Shown in pieces: positions 21,478-38,301 of a DNA stretch of 64,000 nucleotides. The stretch covers positions 1-64,000 of the forward strand of contig JABARQ010000041.1 of the NCBI GenBank assembly GCA_019186985.1. Direction: 5' to 3'. Within the stretch, counting starts at the first letter, position 1, and each line of letters begins with the position of its first letter. This DNA is from Prosthecobacter sp. (GTDB lineage Bacteria; Verrucomicrobiota; Verrucomicrobiia; Verrucomicrobiales; Verrucomicrobiaceae). A program made the translations under genes and the position numbers. Under the pieces are notes generated by a model. That model worked only from the letters and a program-made list of their open reading frames with translations. It was not told the DNA's origin and searched no databases.

Positions 21478-21511
21478 GAAGCCTCCGGTCTTTGCCGGAG
21501 GCTTCTTTTTT
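21478..21511 (+). terminator. Intrinsic terminator
   Basis: An 11-base-pair perfect stem (GAAGCCTCCGG / CCGGAGGCTTC) with a 6-base loop is followed by six T residues. It ends the transcript of the beta-repeat protein and insulates the SDR gene. Confidence 0.85.
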
Positions 21512-22679: not shown

Positions 22680-24026
22680 TCAGCGTCCCGGGATGCCTGC
22701 GACTTCGGAGAGGAACATCCAGTTCCGTGTGATCAGGGTGCTCACGAAGATGGCGAGGAACAAGGTGACAGGCTTGGAGATGAAACGCCATTGTCTCAGG
22801 GCGCGCTCAAGCCCAAGGCCGACAATCATGACCACGATAGGCGTCCAGAGGCAGGCGTGGACGAGCAGGCGCTCCTGGGTGCCATACCAGGAGACGATGG
22901 AAATGCTCCAGATCAGCGTGGCGATGAGCCCGAGGGCCAGGGGTTCCTTGCGGGCCCTCCAGACGATGCCGGCTGAGGCGAGTGCGATGATCAGCAGCCA
23001 GCCTCCGGTCAGCCCCTGGTGGAGGCCGAGCGTCGACCAGTCGTTCCTGTTCAGGATGACCTTGGAGCGGGTCTTGTCGGGCACGGCGGTCACCTGGGCC
23101 GGAGTGACGATGTTGGAGACAAAGATTTCACGCGCGATCAGCGGCGCCGTGTCCGTGGTCGCCTTCCATTCACTGCGCAGGGCCAGGACCTCCTTCCAGG
23201 TGGCAGGCAGCGGGGAGGAGCGGGGGTAGATTTCGCGCTGCAGGTTCGCCAGGCCGAAGCAGAGGGTGATGGCGACAGGCACCAGAAGCAGCGGCCTGAT
23301 GTTCAAGCCTCCGGATTGTGCGCGGTCCTGGGCGCAGCGGGTGAGGGCCATGATCAGGCAGGGGATGATGTTTCCCACAAAGCAGCTCACTGCATAGACA
23401 TAGGCGGCGAGGTGCCAGACGGGTTTTGCCAGGGCGCCCCTTGCGGTGATGGAGGCCATGAGGGCGGCGCCGAGGCCGGCAAAAATCCAGGTTTCAGGCA
23501 GGGGTGCCATGATCCAGGCGCAGGTCCCGGCACCAAAGGTCATCGCCATGAGCAGGGAGCGCAGGGTGTTTGCGCCCGACCAGAGCAGGGTGTGGTAGAC
23601 CATGACGACGGCGAGGGCCGAGGCGAGGCAGGTGAGCATGGCGACGCCGTGGCGGGCGGCCGTGGCCTCGGGCTGGCCGAGGAGTCTCCAGCCCCGGGTG
23701 AAAAGCTGTGCCAGCGGCTGGTGCAGCAGGGTGAAGGCAGGATGAACGGCGGTGATTCCACGATGATCGGCGCTGCGGTCTCCGGCGAGGTCAAGGAAGA
23801 CCGTCTGGGTGCGGGCGCTGAAGACGATGCCGTCCCGGATGTAAATGGGGGTGTCCTTGAACTTCAGATGGGCTGAGAAGAACAGGCTGTAGAAGGCCAC
23901 GGCGAGCATCGCTCCGAGGCCGTGCCAGCGCATGAGGACCCGGGAGGTGTCCGAGGCGCGCTGGCGTGGCAGGGTGGGCTGCGTCCCTGGAGCCGGGGCG
24001 CTGAATCCGGCGACTGGAGTCGTCAT
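22680..24026 (-). CDS. Polytopic membrane protein, glycosyltransferase-like
   Basis: A 448-residue inner-membrane protein with about ten hydrophobic segments. Its layout resembles GT-C family glycosyltransferases such as ArnT/PMT-like proteins. A large non-membrane loop (about 255-310) contains YPRSSPLPATWKEVLALRSEW. The aspartate in FKDTPIYIRDG in the first periplasmic loop is in the right place for a GT-C catalytic acid, but this is tentative. It begins 13 bases after the secretin stop codon and is almost certainly in the same transcript, which suggests a link to the pilus, for example pilin glycosylation. Confidence 0.6.
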   Translation of the reverse strand: MTTPVAGFSAPAPGTQPTLPRQRASDTSRVLMRWHGLGAMLAVAFYSLFFSAHLKFKDTPIYIRDGIVFSARTQTVFLDLAGDRSADHRGITAVHPAFTLLHQPLAQLFTRGWRLLGQPEATAARHGVAMLTCLASALAVVMVYHTLLWSGANTLRSLLMAMTFGAGTCAWIMAPLPETWIFAGLGAALMASITARGALAKPVWHLAAYVYAVSCFVGNIIPCLIMALTRCAQDRAQSGGLNIRPLLLVPVAITLCFGLANLQREIYPRSSPLPATWKEVLALRSEWKATTDTAPLIAREIFVSNIVTPAQVTAVPDKTRSKVILNRNDWSTLGLHQGLTGGWLLIIALASAGIVWRARKEPLALGLIATLIWSISIVSWYGTQERLLVHACLWTPIVVMIVGLGLERALRQWRFISKPVTLFLAIFVSTLITRNWMFLSEVAGIPGR

Positions 24027-24039
24027 GACGGGACAGCTT

Positions 24040-26079
24040 TTAGAAGTACTTTTTGGTGAAGAGCAGGCGGGCCAGCTCCTGACAGCGCACCTGGAGCTTT
24101 TTCAGGCGCTGGTGATGGGCGTCGATCAAGGCGGCCTGTCCGGGATTCTGCGAGCGCAGGCTGTCGCAGTTGAGCGTGATCTGGTCCACGGCGATCTTGA
24201 GCTCCTTCAGCTTGCGGCTTTCATCGGGAGTGATGCGGCTTTCATAGAGCGTGTGGTGCAGGATGTCGGTTTCCCTTTCCAGGTAGGAAACTGCATTCGA
24301 AAGGGCGGGCAGGCCTCCGACAAGCACACCGGTGCTGGGATCGACCTGCGGGACGTTGGGCATGTACCTTCCCGGGCGCTGGGGTATGACGGACTGGGGT
24401 TCCGCCGGCAGGCCGCCATCACGGGCGTTGATGAGCGTGGGGGTGATGAAGAGCATCAGGTTCTTGTGGTTCTTGCTCTTGCTGTCGTACTTGAAGGCCT
24501 TGCCCAGGAGGGGGATGCTCTGAAGGAACGGCACGCCGGACTTGCCCTCGCGTTCACGGGCCTCATCCAGGCCGCCGACGGCGACGGTGTAGCCGGAGTC
24601 GACCTCGACAGGTGCCGAGTAGACGCGCGATGATGCCACGGGGTAGGGGTTGCCCGAGATGACCTCGGTGCCGACGATGCTGGAGACCGTGACCGCCATG
24701 TTCATCAGGATACGATCGCCGTCCATGCGCTTGGGCAGGATGTTCAGCACGGTGCCGATCGGCAGGTAGGCGATCGACTGGGACGTGGTGGCGCCGGCTC
24801 CGACGGTGGCGGAAGACTGGCCGTCCAGCACCGGCTGGTTGACGACGCTGCGGATGGCAACCTCACGGTTGTTCAGGGTGACCATGCGCGGGTAGGAGGT
24901 GGTCTGGGTCTCCTCATCACGGAGCAGCGCGCGCAGCTTCACATTGATGTCCTGGGCGCTGAGAATGCCCAGGGCAGGCCATCCCAGCGCGCCACCGGCC
25001 GCATTCAGGTTGGTGGGTGACCACAGGTTGGCCAGGTCGGTGCGAAAACCTCCGTTGGTCTGGATCTGGTTGAAGGTGACCGTCGTGCCGTCCACCCCGG
25101 TTTTGACATCCTTGACCTGGTTGAAGGTTCCATTTTCAAAAGTTCCGCCCCAGTCGATGCCAAACTCACGCTTGGGATCGCGTGAGGTTTCGATGAACTT
25201 CACCTCAAGGGCGATCAGGGCCTGCGGCTGGTCCGCCACCTTCAGAAAATCCTCCACCCACATGTGCTGGAGACGTGTGGCCACGACGTAAAGGGTGTTT
25301 GAGTCCGACTTCCAGATGACCTTTGGCTTGCGGAAGGAGCTGAGTTCGTTGGAGTTCATGGCCTTCGACATCGGATCCACCGCGCCTCCGGTGATGCCCG
25401 ACAGCAGGCCGCCCACGCCCGTTGCCGCCCCTCCTGCGGCTTCGGCGCCAGATTCATCCGATGAAAGCCCCAGCAGGTCGCGGATGTCGCGGATGATTTC
25501 GCTGGGTTTCAGGGAGAAGGTTTCCTGGACGCCCTGAAGGTTCAGGCCGCTTGAAAGGCCGCCGCCACCTGCCCCGCTGCTGCCGCCACCTCCGCCACCT
25601 CCGCCACCTCCCGTCGTGCCGCCCCCACCCATGCCGCCCGTGCTGATCTTTTCCACGCGTTCGAGGGCGTTGTTGCGGATGAGGTAGGATTTTCCAATGA
25701 GTTCACGGTCGTCCGCAGGCCTGAAGTAGAAGATGCCGTTTTCGTAAATCACGGTCAGGCCGTTGGCACGGCAAACTGTCTCTAGCACGGCGAACGGAGC
25801 CGCCTTGATGGAAAAGGTGGTGAGCTTGGAGGCTTCAGGACTGTCCTGCGGCAGGGAGATGAACGGGATGCCTGAATCTGTGGCCAGGAAGCGGATGACA
25901 TCACCCAGCATGGCCTGGGAGAAGTCGTACTGGTTGGGGGCCCCCTGCCGCAGTGGAGCCGCAATATTCTCGTATTGAGCTGATGTTTGCTGCGGATTGG
26001 AACCAAAAAACTGCGCAACAGCCAAGCTGGGGGCCGCAAGAGCGATCAAGCAGGCAGAAAGTGTCGTGAGAGGGCGCAT
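24040..26079 (-). CDS. Secretin (GspD/PilQ family outer-membrane channel)
   Basis: A 679-residue exported secretin with a signal peptide (MRPLTTLSACLIALAAPSLAVA). An N0/STN-like domain spans about 50-120 and a second N-domain about 250-300. The secretin pore domain covers about 370-570, with SYPRMVTLNNREVAIRS and the family signature VPFLQSIPLLGKAF followed by LMLFITPTLI. A Gly-rich linker lies around residues 150-178. The C-terminal 100 residues are helical and may form a coiled coil. It is the probable outer-membrane exit for the pilus-like machine encoded divergently from 26276, and an equivalent of Akkermansia Amuc_1098. A TTGAGT-17-TATATT promoter sits just upstream. Confidence 0.9.
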   Translation of the reverse strand: MRPLTTLSACLIALAAPSLAVAQFFGSNPQQTSAQYENIAAPLRQGAPNQYDFSQAMLGDVIRFLATDSGIPFISLPQDSPEASKLTTFSIKAAPFAVLETVCRANGLTVIYENGIFYFRPADDRELIGKSYLIRNNALERVEKISTGGMGGGGTTGGGGGGGGGGSSGAGGGGLSSGLNLQGVQETFSLKPSEIIRDIRDLLGLSSDESGAEAAGGAATGVGGLLSGITGGAVDPMSKAMNSNELSSFRKPKVIWKSDSNTLYVVATRLQHMWVEDFLKVADQPQALIALEVKFIETSRDPKREFGIDWGGTFENGTFNQVKDVKTGVDGTTVTFNQIQTNGGFRTDLANLWSPTNLNAAGGALGWPALGILSAQDINVKLRALLRDEETQTTSYPRMVTLNNREVAIRSVVNQPVLDGQSSATVGAGATTSQSIAYLPIGTVLNILPKRMDGDRILMNMAVTVSSIVGTEVISGNPYPVASSRVYSAPVEVDSGYTVAVGGLDEAREREGKSGVPFLQSIPLLGKAFKYDSKSKNHKNLMLFITPTLINARDGGLPAEPQSVIPQRPGRYMPNVPQVDPSTGVLVGGLPALSNAVSYLERETDILHHTLYESRITPDESRKLKELKIAVDQITLNCDSLRSQNPGQAALIDAHHQRLKKLQVRCQELARLLFTKKYF
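25583..25609. repeat. Three tandem 9-base repeats in the secretin gene
   Basis: Three perfect tandem copies of CCGCCACCT (plus-strand reading), embedded in a longer Gly/Ser codon stretch from about 25559 to 25640. They encode part of the Gly-rich linker. A change in copy number would keep the frame. Confidence 0.8.
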
Positions 26080-26100
26080 TGGGTGTGAATTTTTATGGAA

Positions 26101-26129
26101 AATATAATAAGTGTCTGAAAATTACTCAA
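26101..26129 (-). promoter_or_regulatory. Putative sigma-70 promoter of the secretin operon
   Basis: On the minus strand TTGAGT (26129-26124) and TATATT (26106-26101) are spaced by 17 bases, with the -10 box 21 bases before the secretin ATG. It lies within a strikingly AT-rich 196-base region between the divergent pilus operons. Confidence 0.6.
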
Positions 26130-26240
26130 ATTAAATTTATCACTTTTCAATACTAACTATTCTCCAAGCTGAAATGTGGGGCACTGGGAGCAAAATCAGC
26201 ATTAAAGTGTAAAAACCATAAAAAATGCTTCACAAACATG

Positions 26241-26246
26241 TATAAT
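26241..26246 (+). promoter_or_regulatory. Putative -10 element of the pilus operon
   Basis: A perfect TATAAT hexamer lies 29 bases before the ATG at 26276. No good -35 element is seen at the usual distance, but the upstream DNA is A-rich, so an activator or UP-like element may help. Confidence 0.5.
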
Positions 26247-26275
26247 TTCTATATCTTTAGGCGATAGCGATAAAT

Positions 26276-27883
26276 ATGATTCAAGTCATGACATCCTCAA
26301 TTGCCAGCTGCCCATGGATGGGACGGCATCGGATGAGTCATGGTTTTTCCATGCTCGAGGTAACGACTTTGATCGCCATCCTTGGAGTGATGGCCGCGAT
26401 GCTGGTGACGATGGTTGGCCGACAGCCGGTCGCTGTGCGTGAAACCAAGCTGTCGTCGGATGTCGCGACCCTGAACAGCTGTGTGGCCTTGTACCTGGCC
26501 GATGGTGGCAACCTGACGGGGGTGACCAATGCGCAGACGGTGATTGACCGTCTGAAAAGACCCCGTGCCCAGGCGGAGTGGCAGCGTCACACTGGAGCGA
26601 GTTCCGGTCGTCTGGTGGACACAAGGCTGAAGGCGCGCATCACCACGTCCGTGCCGCGGGACGGAAGCCGCCGGGCAAGGTGGAATCCCCAGACGTTTCG
26701 ATTTGAACTGTCCAGCGCCTCTGGAAGCGCAGTCACGGAGTTCTATTTTGATGAAACGCTGCAAAGCCTGGACCCAGGTGTCGACACCACGCGCAAGGGC
26801 AGTGTGGTGAAGTACAACGGCAACAACCGCGGCTGGGTATGGGCGGACAGTTCGGCCAGTTCACTGGCCTATGCCCAGCCGGGCGGGACGACCGGCGCGG
26901 GGAACAGTGTTCCGTTCAACCCTGATGAAGATGCGCCAACAAGCCCTCCTCCCGTCGGTGGTGGAGGCAGCGGAGGCACGGGGGGCACCGGAGGCACGGG
27001 CGGCACCACGGGCGGGGGGACCGGGGATCCGGCTCCCACGAGGCTGCCCAAGCCCGGCATCACCCCTTCCGGCGGCACCTTTGCCTATGCGGCCTTCCCG
27101 TCATCGGCGACCATCAGCTCCAACGGCGCGCCGGCCGGGGATGCATCCCAGCTCCAGTATCGCGTGAACGGCGGCGGCTGGCTGGTTTATGACAACTCAC
27201 CGATTCCGCTGTCTCCGGCGGACCTGGTCGAGGCACGCAACGTGGCGCTCGACACCATGACCTACAGCGACAGCAGCACGGCTCAGGGCCGCTATTACCG
27301 GCTGGTGGAAAGCTTCACCGGTTCTTCGACGGGCACCTGGGGCAACGCCGCCGGCGGCTCGAACCTGTTCGTCGATGTGCAGAACAGCACGAACTCCTCC
27401 ACCTTCAAGCACGGCAACACCAAGCTTGACCTGGGCAACGGTGAATACCTGGACGCCGGCACGGAGAACGTGCTGACCTTCACGCGCGCCCCCTTTGAGT
27501 CGGTCCAGCCGAACACCTGGTTCAACCTGGGGGACATGCTGATGCTCAACGGCACGACCTTTTATGACAGCGAGGCGGGCTCCGTCACCCTCAGCATCAA
27601 CCTGAACATCTCCAGTCCGCCGCAGACGGGCGTCGTGCATGTGAACCTGGGGCTGATCAGCACTGAAAACACCAGCGACCGTCTGGCCAGCGCGGACATC
27701 GTCGAGCTGCGCAATCCGTCGACGGACTTCACCGTCACGATCGACGGGGTCATCTACAGGCTTGAGCTGAGCTGGGTGACCCTCGATCCCGGAGCCGGTG
27801 TCGTGCAGGGCAACCAGTTTCTCATCTACGAAGGATCCACGGCGCGTGCCGAACTCAGGGCGCGCTTCAAAAGCAATCAATAA
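26276..27883 (+). CDS. Large prepilin-like adhesin candidate
   Basis: A 535-residue protein that begins like a type IV prepilin. A short basic leader ends in SHG, then FSMLEVTTLIAILGVMAAML follows with glutamate at +5. After a pilin-like region to about residue 190 there is a Pro/Gly-rich linker (about 220-255, with GGTGG repeats). Next comes a segment resembling a chitobiase/beta-hexosaminidase C-terminal domain (about 258-335). The rest (about 340-535) resembles the choice-of-anchor K domain, with GTWGNAAGGSNLF and the LISTENTSDRLASADIVEL tail. The architecture suggests a surface-displayed tip adhesin. The exact Met is uncertain (26276, 26288 or later), but all precede the leader. Confidence 0.8.
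   Translation: MIQVMTSSIASCPWMGRHRMSHGFSMLEVTTLIAILGVMAAMLVTMVGRQPVAVRETKLSSDVATLNSCVALYLADGGNLTGVTNAQTVIDRLKRPRAQAEWQRHTGASSGRLVDTRLKARITTSVPRDGSRRARWNPQTFRFELSSASGSAVTEFYFDETLQSLDPGVDTTRKGSVVKYNGNNRGWVWADSSASSLAYAQPGGTTGAGNSVPFNPDEDAPTSPPPVGGGGSGGTGGTGGTGGTTGGGTGDPAPTRLPKPGITPSGGTFAYAAFPSSATISSNGAPAGDASQLQYRVNGGGWLVYDNSPIPLSPADLVEARNVALDTMTYSDSSTAQGRYYRLVESFTGSSTGTWGNAAGGSNLFVDVQNSTNSSTFKHGNTKLDLGNGEYLDAGTENVLTFTRAPFESVQPNTWFNLGDMLMLNGTTFYDSEAGSVTLSINLNISSPPQTGVVHVNLGLISTENTSDRLASADIVELRNPSTDFTVTIDGVIYRLELSWVTLDPGAGVVQGNQFLIYEGSTARAELRARFKSNQ
26972..27007. repeat. Four tandem 9-base repeats in the prepilin linker
   Basis: Four near-identical 9-mers alternating GGAGGCACG with GGGGGCACC or GGCGGCACC encode Gly-Gly-Thr units. 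Gain or loss of a unit would lengthen or shorten the linker without a frameshift. Confidence 0.75.
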
Positions 27884-27895
27884 ACCGCCACCGCA

Positions 27896-28960
27896 ATGGA
27901 AGACATCCACGAACGCAGCCAGCTCGGCTACCGCATGCTTCACCTCTCCAAGGACAACGGGGTGAGCGACTTTTACATCACGCCCTGGGAGCCGCTCACC
28001 TACAAGCGCAACGGCAAGCTGTTCTTTGACTCCTTCATCTACCAGCCCGAGCGTCCGCTCGAGTTCACCCCGGGCTGCGTGGACTACGCCCTGACGCTTG
28101 GCAGCCGCCGCTATCGCGTGAACCGCATGGTGACGCGCGGACGGCCCCGCTGGGTGCTGCGCCTGCTGCCTGAAAACATTCCGGACATCAGCAAGCTCAT
28201 GGTGCCGCCTGCGGCCATCAAGGCCTTCCTGGAGGCGAAGAACGGCCTTTTCCTCGTCTGCGGCGCCACGGGTTCCGGCAAGTCCACCACCATCGCCTCG
28301 CTCATCCTGGAGCGCGCCAAGCGCCGTCAGGAGCATGTGCTCACCTTCGAGGACCCGATCGAGTTCGTCTATCCCCCCGGCATCCCCTCGCTGGTCTCAC
28401 AGCGTGAGATCGGCACGGACGAGCTGGACTTCAGCAAGTCCCTGCGCGCCGCCCTCCGGCAGGCGCCTGACGTGATCCTGGTGGGTGAGATTCGAGACGG
28501 CGAGACGGCGGAGATCGCGCTTCAGGCTGCTGAAACCGGCCACGTCGTCGTGGCCACCCTGCACACCAGCAGCGCGGCGCAGACGGTGCAGCGCTACCTG
28601 AAGCTGATCCCGAGCGACCGCATGGAGAACGCCATGCTCTCCTTTGCCGACAGCTTCCGCGGCATCCTCTGCCAGCGCCTGATGTTTGACGAGAACCGCG
28701 GCAAGCGCTTCCCCATCCATGAGCTGCTGCTGCCCTATGACTCGGTGTGCGGGATGATCCGGCGCGGTGAGTTCAAGAACCTGGAGCAGGAGCTGGAGGC
28801 GGGCTTCACGCGCGGGATGATCAGCTTTGAGCGCTGCCTGAACAACCGCATGGCCGACGGCTGGAAGCCCGCCCAGGCGCGCAAGACCGGCTATGCCGAG
28901 CACGAGGTTTACGACTACCTGCAACGAGAAAACCTGACTTCAATTTATGCTATTGGATGA
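27896..28960 (+). CDS. pilT: PilT-type hexameric ATPase
   Basis: A 354-residue secretion ATPase of the PilT/VirB11 superfamily that powers pilus retraction in the cytoplasm. The nucleotide-binding domain has Walker A GATGSGKSTT (about 121-130), the Asp box FEDPIEFVYP, Walker B DVILVGEIRDGETAEIA and the His box GHVVVATLHTSSA. The length is that of PilT rather than PilB, and the tetracysteine motif of extension ATPases is missing. It is the only pilus ATPase in the locus. Its 3' end overlaps the next gene by 14 bases. Confidence 0.93.
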   Translation: MEDIHERSQLGYRMLHLSKDNGVSDFYITPWEPLTYKRNGKLFFDSFIYQPERPLEFTPGCVDYALTLGSRRYRVNRMVTRGRPRWVLRLLPENIPDISKLMVPPAAIKAFLEAKNGLFLVCGATGSGKSTTIASLILERAKRRQEHVLTFEDPIEFVYPPGIPSLVSQREIGTDELDFSKSLRAALRQAPDVILVGEIRDGETAEIALQAAETGHVVVATLHTSSAAQTVQRYLKLIPSDRMENAMLSFADSFRGILCQRLMFDENRGKRFPIHELLLPYDSVCGMIRRGEFKNLEQELEAGFTRGMISFERCLNNRMADGWKPAQARKTGYAEHEVYDYLQRENLTSIYAIG

Positions 28961-29816
28961 AATCAAATCCGTTCTGACCTTCGCGGCCTTCAAGCCCGAG
29001 CCCGATGACGCCACCGTTCCCTGGGTGAAGCGTTTTGAGGGGCGCAGGACCCTGATGATCAACGTCAGCCGCAGCCAGGCAAGCTGGCGTGCGATTGACA
29101 AGAAGGGCCGTCTGGAGGAGGGCGGCGTCATGGAGGGCGAGTTCGCCGACATCGCCCCCCAGCGCGCCGAGGAGTGGCGGCAGATGGCCGACGGCGGCTG
29201 GTGCGTGGTGAGCGTGAACAACCGCTTCATCATCAGCCTCGAGAACAACATGATGCGCGGCGACAACTGCGTGGACCTTCTTCGCACCAACCCGCGCGCC
29301 GTGCTCGGCCCCAAGTATGACCGAGGCAAGCGCTACGCCATGTGCCATCATCCGGACACGACCGCCAGCATGCTCCTCGCCTGCGAGGAGAGCATGGTGA
29401 AGGTCACCGAGGACGTGCTGAAGAACATCGGCCTGCGCACGGGCCGCGTCTGCTGCGGCCTGTTCGCCCTCATCGAGCACGCCGTGAACGAACTTTACGT
29501 CAACAAGCGCGGCGTCGTCCCGGCGGACTCGGCCCTCATCGCAGCCTGCGAGGGCTCCCTCGCCGTGCTTGTCCAGCAGGAGGGCCAGTGGAAGGAGCTT
29601 CGCTGCCGCAGCGGCATGGGGCCCGACGCCGTGGAGACCTCCCTGCAGATCATCACGCCGCTGATCCAGAAGCTGCCCCAGGGCAGCCCGGTCCATTTCA
29701 TCAGCGACGGCCAGGACCTCCGCTTCCGCTCCGAGGTCATGGGCCACCTTGAGAAGCTTGGCGCCACCGACCTCACGCAGGACGACCTGCTGTGGCGCGT
29801 CATCGGATTTCATTAA
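28947..29816 (+). CDS. PilM-like actin-fold protein
   Basis: A 289-residue cytoplasmic protein in the PilM position, directly before two bitopic PilN/PilO-like genes and overlapping pilT by 14 bases. Weak ASKHA-like features are visible: RTLMINVSRSQASWRAI near the N-terminus and a second lobe with SALIAACEGSLAVLVQQ. It is shorter than typical PilM (about 350) and its phosphate loops are poorly conserved, so ATP binding is uncertain. It may correspond to Amuc_1101 of Akkermansia. The call rests mainly on gene order. Confidence 0.6.
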   Translation: MLLDEIKSVLTFAAFKPEPDDATVPWVKRFEGRRTLMINVSRSQASWRAIDKKGRLEEGGVMEGEFADIAPQRAEEWRQMADGGWCVVSVNNRFIISLENNMMRGDNCVDLLRTNPRAVLGPKYDRGKRYAMCHHPDTTASMLLACEESMVKVTEDVLKNIGLRTGRVCCGLFALIEHAVNELYVNKRGVVPADSALIAACEGSLAVLVQQEGQWKELRCRSGMGPDAVETSLQIITPLIQKLPQGSPVHFISDGQDLRFRSEVMGHLEKLGATDLTQDDLLWRVIGFH

Positions 29817-29834
29817 ACCCCGTCCTTCAACATC

Positions 29835-30386
29835 ATGAGCAACTACATCTGCCACGATTTCAAGACGCCGCGCACCGACACCTCCAGGCGGCTTCCGGAC
29901 ACCTTCAAGGCGATCCCCGTCCTCTTCTACCTGTCCCTGGTCGGGGCCGCCTACTTCATGACCATGGACTGGCTGGCCTACAAGCATGCCCAGAAGGAGA
30001 AGGGCGAGGCGGAGGTCCGCAAGACCGCAGTCGAGGAGGCCAAGAAGAAGCTGGACGAGGAGAAGGCCGCCCTGGATCTGGAAACCGCCCGTGCCGAGGC
30101 GCTCGCCAAGTGGATCGAGGGCGCACGCAACATCCAGCCCATCAGCGTCGCCATCGCCAGGGCCATGCCGCTGGAGGTCCGGCTGTCCGACCTGACCATC
30201 GAACGCAGCGAGCAGGTGCCCTCCAACCTCGCCTTGTCCGTCCGCATCAACGGCGGCTCGGTTTCTGAGATCGGCATGATGGAGACGGGGCTTTCACGCC
30301 TTCAGTACCGCTCGTTCTCGCCCCAGCAGAGCAAGGATGGCGAGATCATCGAATACCGCTCAACCCTGGTCCGGCAGGATCCCTGA
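29835..30386 (+). CDS. PilN-like bitopic pilus assembly protein
   Basis: A 183-residue protein with a cytoplasmic N-terminus of about 25 residues, one membrane segment (about 26-45, IPVLFYLSLVGAAYFMTMDW), a charged coiled coil (about 50-95) and a small alpha/beta domain of ferredoxin-like character. That layout is shared by PilN and PilO, which form the inner-membrane alignment complex. The opening MSNYICHDFKTPR could be the segment that binds the PilM-like protein. It lies 18 bases after that gene. Confidence 0.65.
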   Translation: MSNYICHDFKTPRTDTSRRLPDTFKAIPVLFYLSLVGAAYFMTMDWLAYKHAQKEKGEAEVRKTAVEEAKKKLDEEKAALDLETARAEALAKWIEGARNIQPISVAIARAMPLEVRLSDLTIERSEQVPSNLALSVRINGGSVSEIGMMETGLSRLQYRSFSPQQSKDGEIIEYRSTLVRQDP

Positions 30387-30403
30387 CACACACCACCACC
30401 GCC

Positions 30404-31009
30404 ATGAATCCCAAACAGCTTGCCTGCGTCGTGCTGATGTCGATCATCGGGGCCGTCACCTATTTCGGCCAGATCGTCCACAACAAGGTCGCCGCCATGA
30501 AGGGCGAGGCCGAGGCCGCCTCCGAGGATGCCACCGCCGCCGAGGATGCGCGCCAGGTTTCCGAGATCCTCGTCACCAAGACCCGGGCCGAGACCGACGA
30601 GCTGCGCCGCTTCCTCAAGGTGTGGACGCCCCATGCCGACAAGGTCCAGACCGAGCAGGAGGTCGAAAGCGCCTTTGAAATGAGCCTGCGCGACCGCGGC
30701 ATCACCCTGGTGCGCTCCCGCAAGAGCGAGGTGAAGCCCCGCCGCGCGGACCCCTTCATCCCCAGGATCGTGCAGACCTCGATCGTGGTCGAGGACGACT
30801 ACGCCAAGGTCATGAACTGGTTTGGCGACATTGAAAAGCGCCTGCCGCTGGCGCGCGTGGTGGCCTGCACGCTTTCCGGCGGCAGCTCCGTCCGCCAGCT
30901 CAAGCTCGATGTCACCATCGAGACGCCGATTGTCGACATGGCGGCCGTTCCCGGCTCGAAGACGCCCGCCAAGCCCGGGTCGAAGCCTGACTCAACCAAG
31001 AAAGCCTGA
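30404..31009 (+). CDS. PilO-like bitopic pilus assembly protein
   Basis: A 201-residue protein with a membrane segment at about 5-25, a coiled coil (about 30-75) and a C-terminal alpha/beta domain ending in a Lys/Pro-rich tail. Secondary-structure layout and position after the PilN-like gene (17-base gap) support a PilO role. There is no direct sequence signature. Amuc_1100 of Akkermansia also has a PilN/PilO-like fold, so this or the preceding gene may be its counterpart (inference). Confidence 0.6.
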   Translation: MNPKQLACVVLMSIIGAVTYFGQIVHNKVAAMKGEAEAASEDATAAEDARQVSEILVTKTRAETDELRRFLKVWTPHADKVQTEQEVESAFEMSLRDRGITLVRSRKSEVKPRRADPFIPRIVQTSIVVEDDYAKVMNWFGDIEKRLPLARVVACTLSGGSSVRQLKLDVTIETPIVDMAAVPGSKTPAKPGSKPDSTKKA

Positions 31010-31017
31010 GGTGCATC

Positions 31018-31779
31018 ATGAAGCAGTTTTTTAACCTTTTGTTATTCCTGGCGACGACCTGCGGGGCTGTCCTGCGGGCGCAGGAGCCGCTCGTCCCCGA
31101 CGCCGGGGAGGGGGAGACGGAACGAGTCCAGTACACCCTCATCCTGCCGGATGAAAAGACCCCCGAGCTGATCCGTCCGGAGGAGAACAACCCCTTCCAG
31201 ATCGCGGTCGATGAAACCAAGAACGAGGGCGACACCGAGGAGAACCGCATCCGCAACATCCTCCTGGCCATGCCCGCCAAGGGCGGAGGCTACGGCCCGG
31301 GCGGCATGAGGGTCATGCTTGGCAGCATGAGGCTGGTGGCCGGCCAGATGGTGCCCGACGTGCTGCCCGACCAGGAGGTGAAGCTGAGGGTGAAGTCGAT
31401 CACGCCTTCGCAGATCGAGCTGGTGTGGGTGGAGAAGAAGCCGACCGGCCTGCCGCCGAAGCCGTTTGTCATCAACGTCGACGTCTCACCGCGCGTCCGC
31501 TACCAGATGCCGGCGGGAGTCGGCGAAAAAGGGGCCGCCGGAGGCGGCATCGGCACCATGCGCATGGAGGGGCTGTCGGCCTTCAGCCGCAGCCAGGAGG
31601 AGCCCGTGGAGGCCGGTCCGGAGGCGTCCGCCCCCGCAGAGGAACCTCGGACGGCATCCCGGGCGGAACCCGTGCAGGACACGGCCAGGCCTGTTGAAGC
31701 GCCACCCTCTCCATCCTCCCATGTTCCGGAGGCCTCGGTGCTGCGGATGCTCTTCGGCAAGCATGCCCAGAAGAAGTGA
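31018..31779 (+). CDS. Secreted periplasmic protein in the PilP position
   Basis: A 253-residue exported protein with a signal peptide (MKQFFNLLLFLATTCGAVLRA). A disordered acidic stretch contains the ENNPFQIAVDE block. A beta-rich domain follows (about 75-165, with VKLRVKSITPSQIELVWVEKK). A low-complexity Pro/Ala/Glu tail closes it. PilP and GspC proteins likewise join an extended segment to a small beta domain that touches the secretin. It could also match the Ig-like Amuc_1102. The order after PilM, PilN and PilO analogues supports the idea. Confidence 0.55.
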   Translation: MKQFFNLLLFLATTCGAVLRAQEPLVPDAGEGETERVQYTLILPDEKTPELIRPEENNPFQIAVDETKNEGDTEENRIRNILLAMPAKGGGYGPGGMRVMLGSMRLVAGQMVPDVLPDQEVKLRVKSITPSQIELVWVEKKPTGLPPKPFVINVDVSPRVRYQMPAGVGEKGAAGGGIGTMRMEGLSAFSRSQEEPVEAGPEASAPAEEPRTASRAEPVQDTARPVEAPPSPSSHVPEASVLRMLFGKHAQKK

Positions 31780-31790
31780 GATGAACTGAA

Positions 31791-32792
31791 ATGAAGCCGA
31801 ACCCACAGGCCGCAGGACTGCGACGACATCAGCACGGATTCACCGCCGTGGAGCTGGTGACTGTGCTGTCGCTCGCGGCCGTCGTTCTGGGCAGCATCGT
31901 CGTCGGCTTTGGAACCCTGGCTCGCAGCCGGCCGACCGTGGCCTCCGTGGTCGCCGTTCCCCTTGGCGGCACGCGTGTGTTGAACTTCTACGGCGAGTCG
32001 GGAACCACCCGCAACACCGTCACCGCGCCGCATTATGGCATGATGGCCCAGGCGGAGGAGCTGAGGGAGCTGTTTTACACGGACATGGTCAGCGCCACGG
32101 CCGTCTTCTGCCTGCCACGGACTGGAGTGAACACCTACAGGCCTCACTCCATCCCCTACAATCCTGTCGAGCATGGCGAGCTCGACACGCCGCAGAAGTT
32201 CCGGGCGCACCTGCTGGCGGTGGGGGTCTCGCCGATGCCCTTCCTGGACTACCGGAACCCGCTCAATACTCCGGCCACGGCGCCGGCCGAAAACGCCTCG
32301 GTCTTCATCCTCGGCTACAGCAAGCAGGAGTTGAGCCTCAAGGTCATGGCGGTCTATGACATCGACGTCGTCCGCTTTACGGACAGGACCACACCGCAGG
32401 GGTTTCATGCAAGCGTGAAGCGATACGCGGACGATCCCCGCGGCACCAGCTTCCCGCTGGCCTATTCAGGCGGTTATGAAGTCTTCTATCCGCCTTCGAT
32501 CCCGAACTACAACGTCGACAGGCCGCAGGAATGGGCGAGCGACGGCTTCACTCCGCTGTTCATCACCTTTGAGCGTTCGACCCGCATGGCGATCCTGGAA
32601 GGCAATGCGACGGACCGCTTCAAAGTGGCGGCCGAGCGTCCCTTTTACTTCCTCTGGTGGCCTGACCCGGGAGCGCGCCACCTGGGGGCGCAGGTCAACA
32701 CCATGAGCCCGGCGGACCCACGCCAGGCCTACAATCACATGGGCGGCCGCACGGCCTTCATGTTCACCGTGCCGATGTTTCCATCCCTGTAG
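31791..32792 (+). CDS. Prepilin-type N-terminal methylation protein (minor pseudopilin)
   Basis: A 333-residue protein with a canonical prepilin leader. The basic MKPNPQAAGLRRHQHG is cut before FTAVELVTVLSLAAVVLGSI, with glutamate at +5. The large globular part has no recognised domain. It lies 11 bases after the PilP-position gene. At this size it is probably a minor pilin or GspJ-like component rather than the major subunit. Similar large prepilins occur in the cassettes described only from Verrucomicrobia (general knowledge). Confidence 0.8.
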   Translation: MKPNPQAAGLRRHQHGFTAVELVTVLSLAAVVLGSIVVGFGTLARSRPTVASVVAVPLGGTRVLNFYGESGTTRNTVTAPHYGMMAQAEELRELFYTDMVSATAVFCLPRTGVNTYRPHSIPYNPVEHGELDTPQKFRAHLLAVGVSPMPFLDYRNPLNTPATAPAENASVFILGYSKQELSLKVMAVYDIDVVRFTDRTTPQGFHASVKRYADDPRGTSFPLAYSGGYEVFYPPSIPNYNVDRPQEWASDGFTPLFITFERSTRMAILEGNATDRFKVAAERPFYFLWWPDPGARHLGAQVNTMSPADPRQAYNHMGGRTAFMFTVPMFPSL

Positions 32793-32806
32793 CTCCGTCC
32801 ACCCTC

Positions 32807-34408
32807 ATGAAGACTGCCTTCCCTCAAAAGCCCGGCCGGCGTGGCGCCCTGATGGCGGCCGCGCTGCTGCTGATGGTCGTGGGCGGCATGTTCCTGAGTT
32901 CATGGGTGTCCCTGGTCAGCTCAAGGGGTGCCCAGGTGGGCTTTCTTGAAACGGCCGTGCAGCGCCGGCTTTCCATCGAGAGCTCCCGCGGGCTTGCCTG
33001 GCAGTGCGCCCTGGAAAACTCCTTCGTTCCAGGCGAGGTGCTGGCAGGCGGACAGAGCGGCCTGCTGGGGCCGGGCTACGGCGGCATTCACACCAACGAC
33101 GGCTGGACGAACCTGAACATCTACACGTCCACGCGCCTGCCCGGAACCATGAGCACGGTGTTCCCCTACAACTACACCGGCATGAGGCCGATGACGGCCT
33201 ACCTGACCACGGAGCAGCTGAAGCGTCCGAGCACGATCCCCGGTGTCGATGACTTCAACGCCTACCTTTTTTTGAAAAGCTACCCGCCCGTGCTGGCGGG
33301 GGACCTCTTTGTCGCCTACCGCAAGCCGGACGTCGCCGGCACCCAGATCGACATCAACACCACCACCTCCGACCATCACGCGCTCTGGGTGGTGGAGGGC
33401 AGGACGGTGATCCGCGATCCACAGTCGCATTTTGCCAGGACCACGCCGAGCCCCATGCAGCTGCCCTTCATCAGCAGGTCTCTCTACATCCAGTCCCATG
33501 ACAGCTACAACTCACGCGCCATCTACGGGACGACGACGGACAGCTCCGGCGGCGCCGTGCGCCTGCCGCCCTCCAACCTGCCTTCCGTGCCAAGCTCCAC
33601 CGGACCCGTTTCCGGCAGCCGCGATGACGACTTCAAGGGCTATCTGAACGTGGTCAGCAACCCCTCGAACCCGGACAACTCCCTCTGGCATTTCATGGAC
33701 CGGGAAAGGGCGGCCGGGCGCGGGGATTACCGAACCATTGATGTGTTCGTGGAAGGGGCGGACTCGCTGGGCGCCTATGGCATGGAGGAGCAGAAGGATC
33801 CCCAGTACAAGCCGCCGATGTGGCCCAGCGGCTATCCGGCATCGGGCCTGCGCGTGCTGTACATCAACCTTTCCAACGCCAGCCTTCCGCATCTGCGCAT
33901 CCATGGCGTGGTGCATCAGGTCATCTTCCGCGGCCAGTCCAACGCCTCCGCCTTCGAGGCTGCGGGGGCCCTGCCGCCGGTCATCATCACCATGGTGCCG
34001 ATGAACGACTCCGGCCCCTCCGTGCGTGACATCCGTTTTGAGGGCGACAACAACCGCCGCATCGTCATCGGTGCGAAGCACTGGAACGCCGCCCCCCTCG
34101 ACATCACCTGGACAGGCAGCCCGGTGGGCACGGACCACGTCTGGCGCACGGTCTTCATCAACGAATACCAGACGGTCATCCTCAACATGCCGTCCAGCCT
34201 GAGCCGCAAGGTCAGGTGGCTTGGAGGCGTGATGACCAACTGGACCTTCAAGCGCCGTGTCACAGGCGGCGTGAACCCCTCCAGGCTCACCTTCGCCCGC
34301 GACGACAGCCTGCCGACGCTGACTCCCTCCGGCCCGTCGTTTGCCTCCCTGCTGCCGCGCGACGCCTGGCTGGAGTCCTATTTCCTCCCCGTTCCGCCCT
34401 CGTCATGA
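32807..34408 (+). CDS. PilX/GspK-like large minor pseudopilin
   Basis: A 533-residue protein that starts with a basic leader (MKTAFPQKPGRRG) and the hydrophobic helix ALMAAALLLMVVGGMFLSSW. This is the PilX/GspK pattern. Residue +5 is alanine rather than glutamate, as in GspK-type tip subunits. The remaining 480 residues have no known domain. It follows the previous pseudopilin by 14 bases and its stop overlaps the next start (ATGA). A capping or tip role is inferred from the missing Glu5 and large size. Confidence 0.7.
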   Translation: MKTAFPQKPGRRGALMAAALLLMVVGGMFLSSWVSLVSSRGAQVGFLETAVQRRLSIESSRGLAWQCALENSFVPGEVLAGGQSGLLGPGYGGIHTNDGWTNLNIYTSTRLPGTMSTVFPYNYTGMRPMTAYLTTEQLKRPSTIPGVDDFNAYLFLKSYPPVLAGDLFVAYRKPDVAGTQIDINTTTSDHHALWVVEGRTVIRDPQSHFARTTPSPMQLPFISRSLYIQSHDSYNSRAIYGTTTDSSGGAVRLPPSNLPSVPSSTGPVSGSRDDDFKGYLNVVSNPSNPDNSLWHFMDRERAAGRGDYRTIDVFVEGADSLGAYGMEEQKDPQYKPPMWPSGYPASGLRVLYINLSNASLPHLRIHGVVHQVIFRGQSNASAFEAAGALPPVIITMVPMNDSGPSVRDIRFEGDNNRRIVIGAKHWNAAPLDITWTGSPVGTDHVWRTVFINEYQTVILNMPSSLSRKVRWLGGVMTNWTFKRRVTGGVNPSRLTFARDDSLPTLTPSGPSFASLLPRDAWLESYFLPVPPSS

Positions 34409-34872
34409 AGCCGCCCGGACCAGACAAGCTGCTCAACCGCCTGAGGCGTGCCTACACGCTCATGGAGGTGCTGGCCGCGTCTGCGGTCGTCGGCATCGGC
34501 ATGACGGCGGCGGTGTCGCTTTCCTCCACGCTCATGATCCAGGAGGAGCTCTCCTGGCGCGTCGCCGTGGTGCGCAACTACCAGGAGAACATGGGCAGGC
34601 TCTGGCAGCTTGGCATCCGCGCCGAGGACGTGATGAACATCATGCCGCGCCACAGCGACAGCCCGATGCTCAACCAGGTGATCAACGGAACGCCGGTCAT
34701 CATTCAAACGGGCACGACCACGGCCTCGGGCCTTGGCACCATGCAGGCCGCCGCCGTCACCGCAGCGGTCAACATCTCCATGGACCCCGCCGTGAAGCGC
34801 CAGGGCGCCGCCCTCACCTTCAGCGTCTACCGCCCCAAGCTGCCCACCGACCTCCGCCCGGCGGCCCCCTAG
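34405..34872 (+). CDS. Small prepilin-type minor pilin
   Basis: A 155-residue prepilin-like protein. The leader MKPPGPDKLLNRLRRA is followed by YTLMEVLAASAVVGIGMTAA, with glutamate at +5; the cut would be after alanine rather than glycine, which prepilin peptidases tolerate. The size suits GspI/PilV-type minor pilins. The ATG at 34405 overlaps the stop of the preceding gene by four bases, so translation is probably coupled. Confidence 0.82.
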   Translation: MKPPGPDKLLNRLRRAYTLMEVLAASAVVGIGMTAAVSLSSTLMIQEELSWRVAVVRNYQENMGRLWQLGIRAEDVMNIMPRHSDSPMLNQVINGTPVIIQTGTTTASGLGTMQAAAVTAAVNISMDPAVKRQGAALTFSVYRPKLPTDLRPAAP

Positions 34873-34895
34873 CCGCTCCAGCCCCTCCTTCGGCC

Positions 34896-36122
34896 ATGAT
34901 CAAGAAAGTCACCATCACCAACATCAACACCGGGCACAAGACCGTGACCCTGGTGGCGACCGACTCGCATGAAAAGGCCATCATCGGCTGCGGGGTTTCC
35001 GCCAATGAAACCGTGGCCATCGAGGACGTCACCGGTGCGGATGAAAAGCTCCAGCTCCTGACCTCCCCCAAGCCCGGCACGGATGACTGCGGCGCCTTCT
35101 TCTCCGGCCTCGGGCGCTGCCTCGAGCGCAACATCAGCATGGTGAAAAGCCTCAAGCTGCAGGTGAACCGGGTCCGTTCGCCCCGCTACAAGGGCATGAT
35201 CGCCGACGTCATCCAGGCCATCGCCCAGGGGGAGAAGTTCAGTGATGCGATGTCGAGGTTCCCCGACCTGTTTTCGGACGACATCCTTTCGCTGCTTTAC
35301 GCCGGTGAGGAGGCCGGCCAGCTCGCCCGTGTCTGCAAGCGTGTCGGCATGGCGCAGAAGAAGTCCTCCAAGACGCTGAAGAAGCTCAAGGGCGCCCTCA
35401 TTTATCCGGGCATCGTGATGGTGCTCGGCGTCGCGGTTGTCATCGTCATGAGCTTCACGCTCGTGCCGGCGATGTCGAAGCTGTTCGCCAGCTTCGGCAC
35501 GGACCTGCCCGTGCCCACCAAGATGCTCATCGCGCTCTCCGACCTCTTCATCCACAAGCCCTACATGGTCGCGGTTCCCGTCATCGGCCTGTACATGCTG
35601 TTCTCCAACTTCGGCAAGATCATGGCCCAGCGCTGGATGCAGGACCTGGTGCTGAAGATCCCGATCGTCGGTGCGCTGGTGCGCAAGGCGGCGTCGTCCA
35701 CCAGCTTTCGCACGCTGGCCATGCTCACGGAGTCGAACATCCGGCTCACCGGCGCGCTGGAGATCACCGCCGCCGCCACCTGGCACTATCATTACAAGGA
35801 GTTCTTCATGCGCCTGCGCGACCACATCACGGTCGGCCGCAACCTGCATGAGGGCTTCCTCCTGGAATCCCACTGGCTGGGCTCGGACGGACGCAACCTC
35901 TGCGGCCTCATCGAACTGGCCAGCGAGACCGGCTCCGGCACGGAGATGCTCTCGGAGATCGCCGACGACTACGAGGAGGAGCTCGACAACATGGCGGCAT
36001 CGCTGGACAAGCTCATCGAGCCCCTGACCATGCTCGTCCTCGGGGTGATCGTCGGCTTCCTCATCTACGCCATCTACGGCCCGATGTTCAGCCTCGGCGA
36101 CGTCATCCTGAAGAAAAAGTAG
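34896..36122 (+). CDS. pilC: PilC/GspF family inner-membrane platform protein
   Basis: A 408-residue protein with two T2SSF domains (about 65-190 and 270-400) and three membrane segments (LIYPGIVMVLGVAVVIVMSF, YMVAVPVIGLYMLF and LTMLVLGVIVGFLIYAIYGP). Typical motifs are GEKFSDAMSRFPDLFSDDILSLLYAGEEAGQL in domain 1 and LIELASETGSGTEMLSEIADDYEEELD in domain 2. It forms the platform driven by the pilus ATPase. A short extra N-terminal domain precedes it. It is the last gene of the pilus run. The ATG at 34896 fits the family. Confidence 0.93.
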   Translation: MIKKVTITNINTGHKTVTLVATDSHEKAIIGCGVSANETVAIEDVTGADEKLQLLTSPKPGTDDCGAFFSGLGRCLERNISMVKSLKLQVNRVRSPRYKGMIADVIQAIAQGEKFSDAMSRFPDLFSDDILSLLYAGEEAGQLARVCKRVGMAQKKSSKTLKKLKGALIYPGIVMVLGVAVVIVMSFTLVPAMSKLFASFGTDLPVPTKMLIALSDLFIHKPYMVAVPVIGLYMLFSNFGKIMAQRWMQDLVLKIPIVGALVRKAASSTSFRTLAMLTESNIRLTGALEITAAATWHYHYKEFFMRLRDHITVGRNLHEGFLLESHWLGSDGRNLCGLIELASETGSGTEMLSEIADDYEEELDNMAASLDKLIEPLTMLVLGVIVGFLIYAIYGPMFSLGDVILKKK

Positions 36123-36202: not shown

Positions 36203-36994
36203 ATGCCCTCCGTCCTCGCCCTCTTCGCCCATCCTGACGACATTGAATTTGTTGCCGCCGGCACGCTCCTGCAGCTGCAGGCCAGGGGCTGGGACGTTCA
36301 TTACATGAACCTCTGCACCGGCAACGGCGGATCCGTGCAGATGGACGGGCCGGCCACGTCCGCCACCCGCCTTGAGGAGGGCAGGGAGGCGGCGCGCATC
36401 CTGGGTGCCACGTTTTATCCGCCCATCGCCGACGACCTGGAGCTCACCTACCAGGTGCCGTATCTGCGGAAGGTCGCCTCCGTGGTGCGGGCGGCGCGGC
36501 CGAGCATTGTGCTCACGCATTCTCCGGCCGACTACATGGAGGATCATCAAAACGCCTGCCGCCTGGCCTGCACGGCGTCCTTCGCCCACTGCATCCCCAA
36601 CTTCGCCTGTGACCCGCCGCGTGAGGCCTTCATGCATGATGTCACCGTCTATCACGCCATGCCGCACGGCCAGTGTGACCCCTTGCGCAAGCGCATCCAC
36701 GCCGGTCTCTTTGTGGACACCACGCCGGTCCATGCCCGCAAGCGCGAGGCGCTGGCCGCCCATGTCAGCCAGAAGCATTGGCTGGACGTGAGCCAGGGCA
36801 TGGACTCCTACCTGATCAGCATGGACGAGGCCTCACGGAAGATCGGGGCTCTGTCCGGCAGTTTTGAACACGCCGAAGGCTGGCGCCGCCATCTCCACCT
36901 CGGCTACAGCGCGCAGGAGGTGGATCCACTCAGGGATGCCCTTGGCGATTCCGTGCGGGTCAACGAGGCCTATGAAGCCTGGCTGAAGGAATGA
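36203..36994 (+). CDS. PIG-L (LmbE-like) family deacetylase
   Basis: A 263-residue zinc-dependent N-deacetylase of the PIG-L/LmbE/MshB family. The metal motif AHPDDIE is at residues 9-15 and the third ligand region is DYMEDHQNA. These enzymes remove acetyl from N-acetylglucosamine-like groups on lipids or small molecules. No signal peptide is seen, so it is cytoplasmic. It starts 80 bases after pilC on the same strand but has no obvious pilus role. Confidence 0.88.
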   Translation: MPSVLALFAHPDDIEFVAAGTLLQLQARGWDVHYMNLCTGNGGSVQMDGPATSATRLEEGREAARILGATFYPPIADDLELTYQVPYLRKVASVVRAARPSIVLTHSPADYMEDHQNACRLACTASFAHCIPNFACDPPREAFMHDVTVYHAMPHGQCDPLRKRIHAGLFVDTTPVHARKREALAAHVSQKHWLDVSQGMDSYLISMDEASRKIGALSGSFEHAEGWRRHLHLGYSAQEVDPLRDALGDSVRVNEAYEAWLKE

Positions 36995-37053: not shown

Positions 37054-38301
37054 TCACGGTGGCGGAGTGAGGGTGAACTGACCGCTTTCGCTGGTTCCTG
37101 GAAAGAAGCCGGCGGCGGAGCGGGCGCTTTGAAGAATGACGCCGCCCACGGTGCGGGTGACTCCGGCCTCGGGCTTGAAGGTGCCGCTGACAAACCCGCT
37201 GGGGGCTGAAAGGCTTAGCTTGAGCGACACGGGGTCAAGGGGTGCGGTGATCTTGTTGGTGCTGTCGATGGTGATGTCGCGGATGAAGGGCGGCGCGGTC
37301 AGGTTTCCTCCGGTGGCGGTGAACACGGCGTTGGGGGAGGTGCCGTTGAGATCCATGGCTCGCCGGCCTGCCGCCGGTGGAATGTACAGCGCACCCTGGG
37401 CGTCGAGCTGCGTGGTGAAGGCGGCGTCATGCAGCGGGCCGGTGGTGTCCGGCTTGAGCCAGTCTAGGGTGCCGCTGACGGCCAGTCCCGGGGCAGTGAC
37501 CGGGAAGAACCGCAGGCTTCCGGCGATGAAGCCCTGGCTGGAATGAAGAGGGACGTAGAGCGGCCAGGTGTTCATGCCGACAATCTGGGCACCCTGGGTG
37601 ATGGCGACGTTGTTGGCCAGCTTGCCAGCCAGGGTGAGCGCGCCCTTGCTGCTCACCACGAGGGTGGCGTAACCCGTGCCCTGGGGGATGCCGGGGTCTG
37701 AGGATGTCTTCAGCAGCACCAGCGTGTACCTGCCCACGAGGCCGCCGCCGATGGTTAGGCCGCCGCTGTTGTAAAGATCCCGCTGAAGGGCGATGCCGGA
37801 GTTGAACACGACGCCGCCGACATCGCCGGTCAGGGTGCCGCTGATGGATGGAACGCTGCCATGCACATCGAGGCTCAGCGTCAGCTGGTAGTCGAGCAGC
37901 GGATCCTTGCGGTCGATGAAGACATGCAGGCCGTCCAGGCTTCCATCGGCGAGGAAGGAGCCGCCGAAGCCGTGGGTGACGCCCTGGATGGTGAGCTTGC
38001 CGCTGAAGGTGCCGCCGGCCGTGAGCTTGATGGAGATGATCCCCGTGTGCCCGGCATGGATGTCGGTGTTGGTGATGATGCCGGCGTAGTTTCCCGCCAG
38101 CAGCGGAGGCGGTGCGAGCGGAGGTGTGACCGTGCTGGCACGGCTGAGCAGGCTGCCGTTCTTGTCGTAGGCGTAGTCGCTCCGGCTGGTTCCATCATAA
38201 TTGACGGAGATCAGCCGTCCGCTGACGTCATGCCGGAAGGAGACGGTGACGGCCTGTGATGACAGGAGTGGCAGAAGGCCCAGGAGGAGAAATGTTTTCA
38301 T
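37054..38301 (-). CDS. Secreted protein with an N-terminal YD-repeat stub and beta-repeat modules
   Basis: A 415-residue exported protein with a signal peptide (MKTFLLLGLLPLLSSQAVT). Immediately after it come one or two RHS-type YD repeats (FRHDVSGRLISVNYDG, DYAYDKNGSLLSRAS). The remaining 340 residues are beta modules (GNYAGIITN, GTFSGKLTIQG, GALTLAGKLANNVAI) of the same type as in the protein at 19737-21446. It lies 48 bases downstream of the large RHS gene on the same strand, so the pair probably form one unit. Function unknown. Confidence 0.7.
   Translation of the reverse strand: MKTFLLLGLLPLLSSQAVTVSFRHDVSGRLISVNYDGTSRSDYAYDKNGSLLSRASTVTPPLAPPPLLAGNYAGIITNTDIHAGHTGIISIKLTAGGTFSGKLTIQGVTHGFGGSFLADGSLDGLHVFIDRKDPLLDYQLTLSLDVHGSVPSISGTLTGDVGGVVFNSGIALQRDLYNSGGLTIGGGLVGRYTLVLLKTSSDPGIPQGTGYATLVVSSKGALTLAGKLANNVAITQGAQIVGMNTWPLYVPLHSSQGFIAGSLRFFPVTAPGLAVSGTLDWLKPDTTGPLHDAAFTTQLDAQGALYIPPAAGRRAMDLNGTSPNAVFTATGGNLTAPPFIRDITIDSTNKITAPLDPVSLKLSLSAPSGFVSGTFKPEAGVTRTVGGVILQSARSAAGFFPGTSESGQFTLTPPP

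Follow-up and report, generated by a model that had tools for sequence, protein, structure and literature searches.

A 64,000-nucleotide stretch of Prosthecobacter sp. DNA (the window, from contig JABARQ010000041.1, here called C20, one of the 55 contigs of a 5.88-Mb genome) carries a cluster of pilus genes that probably encodes the core of a type IV pilus-like machine, a distinct one that occurs in the Verrucomicrobiales and a few of their neighbours. As deduced from the genes, this core would take its assembly motor and several prepilins from a second contig of the same genome, C43, and a small pilin encoded on a third, C6, is a candidate for the main subunit. What carries the odds of this reading is that the cluster and the C43 ATPase occur in the same genomes and are linked in some of them. 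The cluster would seem to be a variant within the type IV filament superfamily, with a function that we infer from its parts. The features of the cluster are given below, where M, N, O and P are the labels used throughout for four of its products and lengths are in amino acids (aa).

24040..26079, minus strand: outer-membrane secretin, 679 aa, with a signal peptide, a secretin domain at residues 384–549 and a tail of about 130 residues behind the domain (Pfam Secretin, 4.3e-33)
26080..26275, no strand: intergenic stretch of 196 bases that separates the divergent secretin from the pilus genes; from sequence and distance, the presumed promoter region
26276..27883, plus strand: large prepilin, 535 aa, with a GFSMLE N-terminus, a Gly/Thr-rich linker and a C-terminal choice-of-anchor K domain at 348–526 (NF038131, 8.5e-22)
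27896..28960, plus strand: PilT-class ATPase, 354 aa (Pfam T2SSE, 5.8e-44)
28947..29816, plus strand: M, predicted actin-fold protein like PilM and the cytoplasmic part of EpsL, 289 aa (AlphaFold model, Foldseek, VIA)
29835..30386, plus strand: N, PilN-position protein, 183 aa, with a short, conserved tail in the cytoplasm, a single predicted transmembrane helix (about 24–42) and the rest periplasmic (position and topology only)
30404..31009, plus strand: O, PilO/GspM-position protein, 201 aa, with one N-terminal predicted transmembrane helix at 6–26 (position, topology, low-probability profile match)
31018..31779, plus strand: P, PilP-position periplasmic protein, 253 aa, with a beta-rich core at about 74–153 (position, weak structural match)
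31791..32792, plus strand: minor prepilin, 333 aa, GFTAVE (Pfam N_methyl, 1.3e-4; TIGR02532)
32807..34408, plus strand: PilX/GspK-like large minor prepilin, 533 aa, with a prepilin-like N-terminus lacking Glu+5 (N-terminal hydrophobic helix at 12–39, position)
34405..34872, plus strand: minor prepilin, 155 aa, YTLMEV (NCBIfam prepilin motif TIGR02532, 9.4e-5)
34896..36122, plus strand: PilC/GspF inner-membrane platform protein, 408 aa (Pfam T2SSF, 1.9e-35)

The ten plus-strand genes are tightly packed, with overlaps of 14 bases (between the PilT-class gene and M) and 4 bases and gaps of 8–23. This is the single packed rightward run with a divergent secretin that an earlier reading of the bare sequence, the original prediction, had described, and all of the genes lie where it placed them. 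For the last two genes the listed open reading frames (218 and 593 aa) begin far upstream, and the better fit is given by the ATG codons at 34405, which overlaps the stop of the preceding prepilin by 4 bases, and at 34896. The four unusually large prepilins of that prediction come down to three (535, 333 and 533 aa), the fourth being of 155 aa. Its description of the system as complete does not hold either. Among the cluster genes there is no assembly ATPase, only one of the PilT, that is the retraction, type, and completeness fails because the likely assembly ATPase and the small prepilins are on another contig and a possible major pilin is on a third.

The layout is conserved well beyond this genome. 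A scan of the contigs of 84,980 species with two short peptide patterns gave 98 confirmed relatives of M, and the 80 of these that were listed (the 80 loci) are all titled as Verrucomicrobia. M is present in all 80, the PilT-class ATPase in 79, N in 77, O in 75, P in 74, the three minor prepilins in 67, 59 and 58, PilC in 59 and the secretin in 50. Most of the gaps are taken for contig ends, and the single locus lacking the PilT-class gene is itself cut at a contig end. Following each locus as far as its contig reaches, we found no violation of the gene order, in a test that left out pilA, whose weak matches mix with those of small prepilins. Wherever the secretin is visible, which is in 50 loci, it is encoded on the opposite strand, and 39 of the 80 hold it together with all nine genes from the PilT-class gene to PilC. 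This conservation of layout exceeds chance. Among the 80 loci, as found with the two patterns, the order was not seen outside the Verrucomicrobiota. The open-licence literature, covered in part, gave no description of the cluster, in line with the original prediction that its layout is not one recognised as named. Akkermansia muciniphila is the title of four records among the 80 (L090, L094, L121 and L144); L090 shares its contig number and match position with a genome placed in the window's genus (G031), and its Akkermansia title appears to be a mislabel.

The likely motor is encoded at C43 (L015), where a 723-aa ATPase of the GspE/PilB class is accompanied by three small prepilins, a response regulator (Pfam Response_reg) and a hybrid kinase (HisKA, HATPase and receiver domains). 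The genome has 13 T2SSE genes over cut-off, and this one was singled out by its occurrence. In eleven picked genomes of the genus an ATPase of the C43 class is found in six of six that have the cluster and in none of five that do not. Wider co-occurrence was followed in three overlapping sets, comprising relatives, the order and the phylum. Amongst the relatives, M and the ATPase are in the same 27 of the 43 genomes with a completeness of 90% or more and a contamination of 5% or less (in the full set of 56 relatives, a 20-bit partial match to M in G045 was counted as absent). In the 191 genomes of the order M occurs in 77 and the ATPase in 74, with 74 holding both, 114 neither, three M only and none the ATPase only. 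The two thus agree in 188 of the 191 (Fisher p 5e-50, a value that ignores descent), where the comparison was made genome by genome among the listed genomes and the listing did not name every negative. Across the phylum both are in the same eight of 383 genomes, of which seven also belong to the order set and the eighth lies outside the order. In the window's genus and in genera g9 and g18 the listed members without M are also without the ATPase.

Linkage points the same way. In 22 of 74 genomes M and the ATPase are on one contig, less than 12 kb apart and on the same strand with the ATPase downstream; 19 of these belong to family f3 and three to the window's family. The sole joined island that was read gene by gene, in G047, runs from a window-type cluster to a 131-aa prepilin, three small prepilins (X, Y and Z), the ATPase, a response regulator and a relative of the hybrid kinase. 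All 27 genomes of the window's genus that hold both in the order set have the ATPase on a different contig from the cluster, and among them is one assembled into six contigs (G016). Some other genera keep the pieces side by side, so that the machine is probably split in this genus, and from the co-occurrence and the linkage it is likely that the C43 ATPase serves the window cluster.

Could the cluster instead be self-sufficient, with the PilT-class ATPase alone driving both extension and retraction in the manner of the single bifunctional Tad motor? Neither the window cluster nor any of the 80 loci showed an ATPase of the assembly class, though many of these loci end before its expected place, and there are precedents in the available text of two papers, one on the MSHA pilus, for which PilT promotes both extension and retraction (PMC9815625), and one on CpaF, which is bifunctional (PMC12019362). 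Given a separate assembly-class ATPase whose presence matches that of the cluster in 188 of 191 genomes, with the two near each other in 22, we regard such an arrangement as highly improbable, and PilT as the sole motor was dropped once the occurrence of the C43 ATPase proved to follow that of the cluster.

Another candidate motor was a tandem pair of pilB genes. The pair is beside one pilC in the same genome as the window, on contig C3, and an adjacent pair is also found in many relatives, including six genomes of genus g2. It was rejected as the motor of the cluster, as it is also listed in five cluster-negative genomes (G003, G007, G010, G013 and G014) and in the six g2 genomes; a role as a helper is possible.

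The main subunit may be encoded apart from both loci. Ahead of the motor module in G019 stands a small pilin whose nearest relative in the window's genome is a 142-aa prepilin on C6, 63% identical to it, and this C6 protein is the candidate major pilin.

The proteins in the positions of PilM, PilN, PilO and PilP match no family in Pfam or NCBIfam. For M, an AlphaFold model built on a 20-row alignment (A1, the window included, from M matches) has a pLDDT of 85.8 and a pTM of 0.85. Its top Foldseek matches are EpsL (1yf5, 9.6e-13) and PilM (5eox, 4.4e-12). With VIA-align BT_3980 scores Z 13.3 and both PilM (2ych) and 1yf5 score Z 12.3, with FtsA close at Z 10–12. BT_3980, EpsL, PilM and FtsA score so close together that the fold prediction points to the PilM/GspL/FtsA group as a whole, and PilM is its natural reading from the position of the gene. 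M is therefore predicted to be a PilM-type protein. The phosphate-loop letters that we take to mark ATP-binding PilM are not evident at the equivalent strand of M, so that M may resemble GspL more than PilM in this respect and bind no nucleotide.

The model of P has a pLDDT of 69.8 overall and about 90 in its core, and is confident only at residues 74–153 or so. The first six VIA rows, at Z 4.7–5.3, are four PilP entries together with 3jc8_Pa and 4av2_M, chains of pilus complexes that we take for PilP, with pyruvate carboxylase tied at 4.2–4.6. Foldseek places 3jc8_Pa first at E 0.066 and gives nothing at E 0.001 or better, and P would seem to lean, weakly, to PilP. In an hhalign comparison with 207 proteins of the same genome, the profile of O ranks three proteins that are taken for GspM by position first, second and fourth (probability 19.9, 13.1 and 3.4 percent), and the probabilities for M, N and P reach at most 4 percent. 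Scanning every row of the N, O and P alignments against Pfam, and searching the sequences of the Protein Data Bank (PDB) with profiles of M, N, O and P, gave nothing or chance-like matches only. These alignments (A2 with 25 rows, A3 and A4 with 24 each) combine the window with 24 of the 80 loci picked for diversity, minus L143 in A3 and L119 in A4, whose starts are doubtful. PilN and PilO are thus putative names for N and O, given from gene position and topology. The original prediction of a PilM–P-like set is borne out for M, which does not fold unlike PilM in the model but has a predicted PilM/EpsL fold; it is weakly favoured for P, and for N and O it stands on position and topology as before. 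According to the available part of a review, the PilMNOP counterparts of different systems share structure and little if any sequence homology (PMC4471445), so that an absence of sequence matches for new scaffold proteins is unsurprising.

The remaining parts were assigned by family score, and these scores bear on whether the machine builds a pilus or secretes. The PilT-class ATPase scores 273.1 bits against pilT_fam (cut-off 319.1) and 135.4 against GspE, and its nine best PDB sequences are all PilT, PilU or pilus retraction ATPases. It carries letters that we read as Walker A, Asp box, Walker B and His box. A tree of 35 ATPases places it on the PilT side of a 100/100 split, within the retraction ATPases, and the C43 ATPase on the PilB/GspE side; this split is the only part of the tree that was used, as the tree joins some long branches. 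The C43 ATPase itself scores 407.8 bits as GspE and 397.7 as PilB (PilB cut-off 675.65). The secretin has a secretin domain and remains below the cut-off of both named families, with 134.7 bits as GspD (cut-off 351.35) and 120.6 as PilQ (cut-off 284.35), and it finds GspD best amongst PDB sequences (5.5e-19, against 1.5e-16 for PilQ). PilC matches HofC (2.4e-60), PilC (6.8e-57) and GspF (1.3e-53), every one under its cut-off. Of the prepilins, the anchor-K protein reaches only 0.11 for N_methyl in Pfam and has an N-terminal GspG match of 0.0022 in NCBIfam; the 533-aa prepilin has no match in either database, and its likeness to PilX/GspK is our assumption.

Several of these scores would suit a type II-like secretion machine. 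Its prepilins would build a short pseudopilus in the periplasm, and this would drive proteins, the anchor-K domain possibly among them, out through a GspD-like secretin. The secretin and the assembly ATPase both score slightly better as GspD and GspE than as PilQ and PilB, a GspK/PilX-like subunit is present, the profile of O leans to proteins taken for GspM, and the small pilins match the GspG and GspH models about as well as those of PilA and ComGC, in each case N-terminally and below cut-off. Against this, a PilT-class ATPase is present in 79 of the 80 loci, the remaining one being cut at a contig end, and M and N are separate genes where a type II system would have one GspL and no PilT. 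PilT is frequently lost in type II systems, according to the available part of Denise et al (2019; PMC6668835). Clusters of GspE-class, F-class and pseudopilin genes are, moreover, already found elsewhere in the genome. A secretion machine is for these reasons unlikely. A further unusual system is found on contig C18 at about 85,000–104,000 (L009, L010), where a secretin of its own is accompanied by genes of the GspE and F classes, by small prepilins and a 639-aa protein, and by a divergent ATPase of the PilT class; an ATPase scoring like the last of these occurs in five of the eleven picked genomes, one of them without the window cluster. Seven secretins of the genome are over cut-off.

A pilus reading places the cluster nearest to type IVa pili, which likewise have separate genes in the PilM, PilN, PilO and PilP positions, a PilT-class ATPase and, if the C43 protein serves the cluster, one of the PilB/GspE class, PilC, a secretin and several prepilins, and the predicted PilM fold of M adds to this likeness. 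It differs from them in that M, N, O and P match no Pfam or NCBIfam family, in the divergent transcription of a secretin that is under the PilQ cut-off, in its large anchor-K prepilin, in the probable spread of its genes over two or three loci in this genus, and in the two-component pair beside the ATPase.

Within the phylum, the closest comparison is with the Amuc_1098–1102 system described in Akkermansia (PMC4960237, as far as available), which is also verrucomicrobial and secretin-based and which the original prediction took for a smaller related version of the cluster. This did not hold up. The window secretin scores 58.2 bits against the Amuc_1098 model, whose cut-off is 750, while two genes elsewhere in the same genome, at C27 and C8, exceed it with 1015.7 and 906 bits, and the cluster was accordingly rejected as a form of that system. 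Six genomes of genus g2 (2.4–3.2 Mb), which we take for Akkermansia, have the adjacent pilB pair and lack M. It might still be argued that the cluster is a degenerate or auxiliary copy of this general pilus that shares the tandem PilB pair and adds adhesive subunits to the same filament, since both systems are present in the genome and the nearest paralogue of the window PilC, among nine fetched stretches of that genome, is the PilC beside the pair. Against this, the cluster has a secretin, a platform, scaffold genes and a PilT-class ATPase to itself, all conserved across genera, the secretin is far under the Amuc_1098 cut-off, and an assembly-class ATPase of its own co-occurs with the cluster. 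We give the idea very little credence.

Runs of large prepilin-type proteins in Verrucomicrobia are also a feature of the Verru_Chthon cassette (TIGR02596 and relatives). The window prepilins resemble it in this respect; none of them matches a Verru_Chthon model at E up to 1, and the small pilin of the relatives gives a weak N-terminal match only, of 23 bits against a cut-off of 70. In the main text of Denise et al (2019), as far as available, the strings "Verrucomicrob" and "Planctomycet" are absent (PMC6668835).

If the cluster and the C43 module are parts of one machine, small pilins would be matured by a prepilin peptidase and assembled on the PilC platform by the C43 ATPase. The growing filament would be held by the M–N–O–P scaffold, which would tie the secretin to the inner membrane, and would leave through the secretin as its outer-membrane exit. 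The PilT-class ATPase may retract it. The three minor prepilins could prime or cap the filament, and together with the anchor-K prepilin, which probably displays an adhesive or surface domain, they are probably at its tip or surface. The hybrid kinase and the response regulator would probably control or time assembly. A retractable filament used for attachment would be consistent with this set of parts.

Several observations weigh against a separate pilus machine of this kind. The co-occurrence counts are not independent of descent, and the cluster and the ATPase part company in a few genomes: a 56-genome set has M only in G015 and G031 and the ATPase only in G025, all of them 78–81% complete, and the order set has M only in the drafts G140, G091 and G108. 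C43 is without the small pilin that precedes the module in G018, G019 and G023. The secretin leans to GspD rather than PilQ and the C43 ATPase slightly to GspE rather than PilB, and each is compatible with a secretion system too. N and O match no family by sequence, and P has a weak structural match, at Z about 5 and a Foldseek E of 0.066, with which unrelated rows are tied. The ATPase of the PilT class is under its NCBIfam cut-off and lacks the AIRNLIRE letters, as do the genome's five other PilT-class proteins; because those differ too, the AIRNLIRE comparison is uninformative. In L121 and L127 PilC comes right after P with no prepilin matches between them. No prepilin peptidase is among the named cluster genes, the genome not having been searched for one, and the filament is predicted from genes.

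Verrucomicrobia are common in water and soil, and the sole verrucomicrobial pilus with a gene-level study in the literature searched is the Akkermansia one. The window cluster is a second verrucomicrobial secretin system, set apart by its secretin family and with a defined gene set. As the machine is probably split in this genus, annotating the window by itself would give a pilus lacking its assembly motor. Verrucomicrobium spinosum is reported to bear fimbriae at the tips of its prosthecae (PMC12283558, available part). The cluster is carried by a record titled Verrucomicrobium sp. BvORR106 (L117), and a link to these fimbriae is offered as a hypothesis only. Taken to its full extent, the proposal would be of a type IV filament machine in a class by itself, one that was founded within the Verrucomicrobiota, has scaffold proteins of its own, an anchor-K adhesin at its tip and a hybrid-kinase circuit dedicated to it, and builds prostheca-tip attachment fimbriae in Verrucomicrobium and relatives; we consider this unlikely. 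The split and joined arrangements found across genera make both the belonging together of the parts and the prostheca-tip origin testable.

Five genes around the cluster do not share its conservation, as far as the loci reach. Those at 21492, 22370, 36203 and 37054 were rejected as members, with matches in none of the 80 loci, as was that at 22680, with matches in only two; not all loci reach these positions. A search of plasmids with M gave no match, a scan of five neighbouring genes for defence systems found none, and a tRNA scan of locus L227 found none. Directly after pilC is a PIG-L family deacetylase (36203–36994, plus strand), which has no match in the 80 loci. It is followed by a 415-aa protein at 37054–38301 with an RHS-like start and no Pfam match, and, at 38350–42762 on the minus strand, by a 1470-aa RHS-repeat protein with 11 repeats and a DUF6531 domain.

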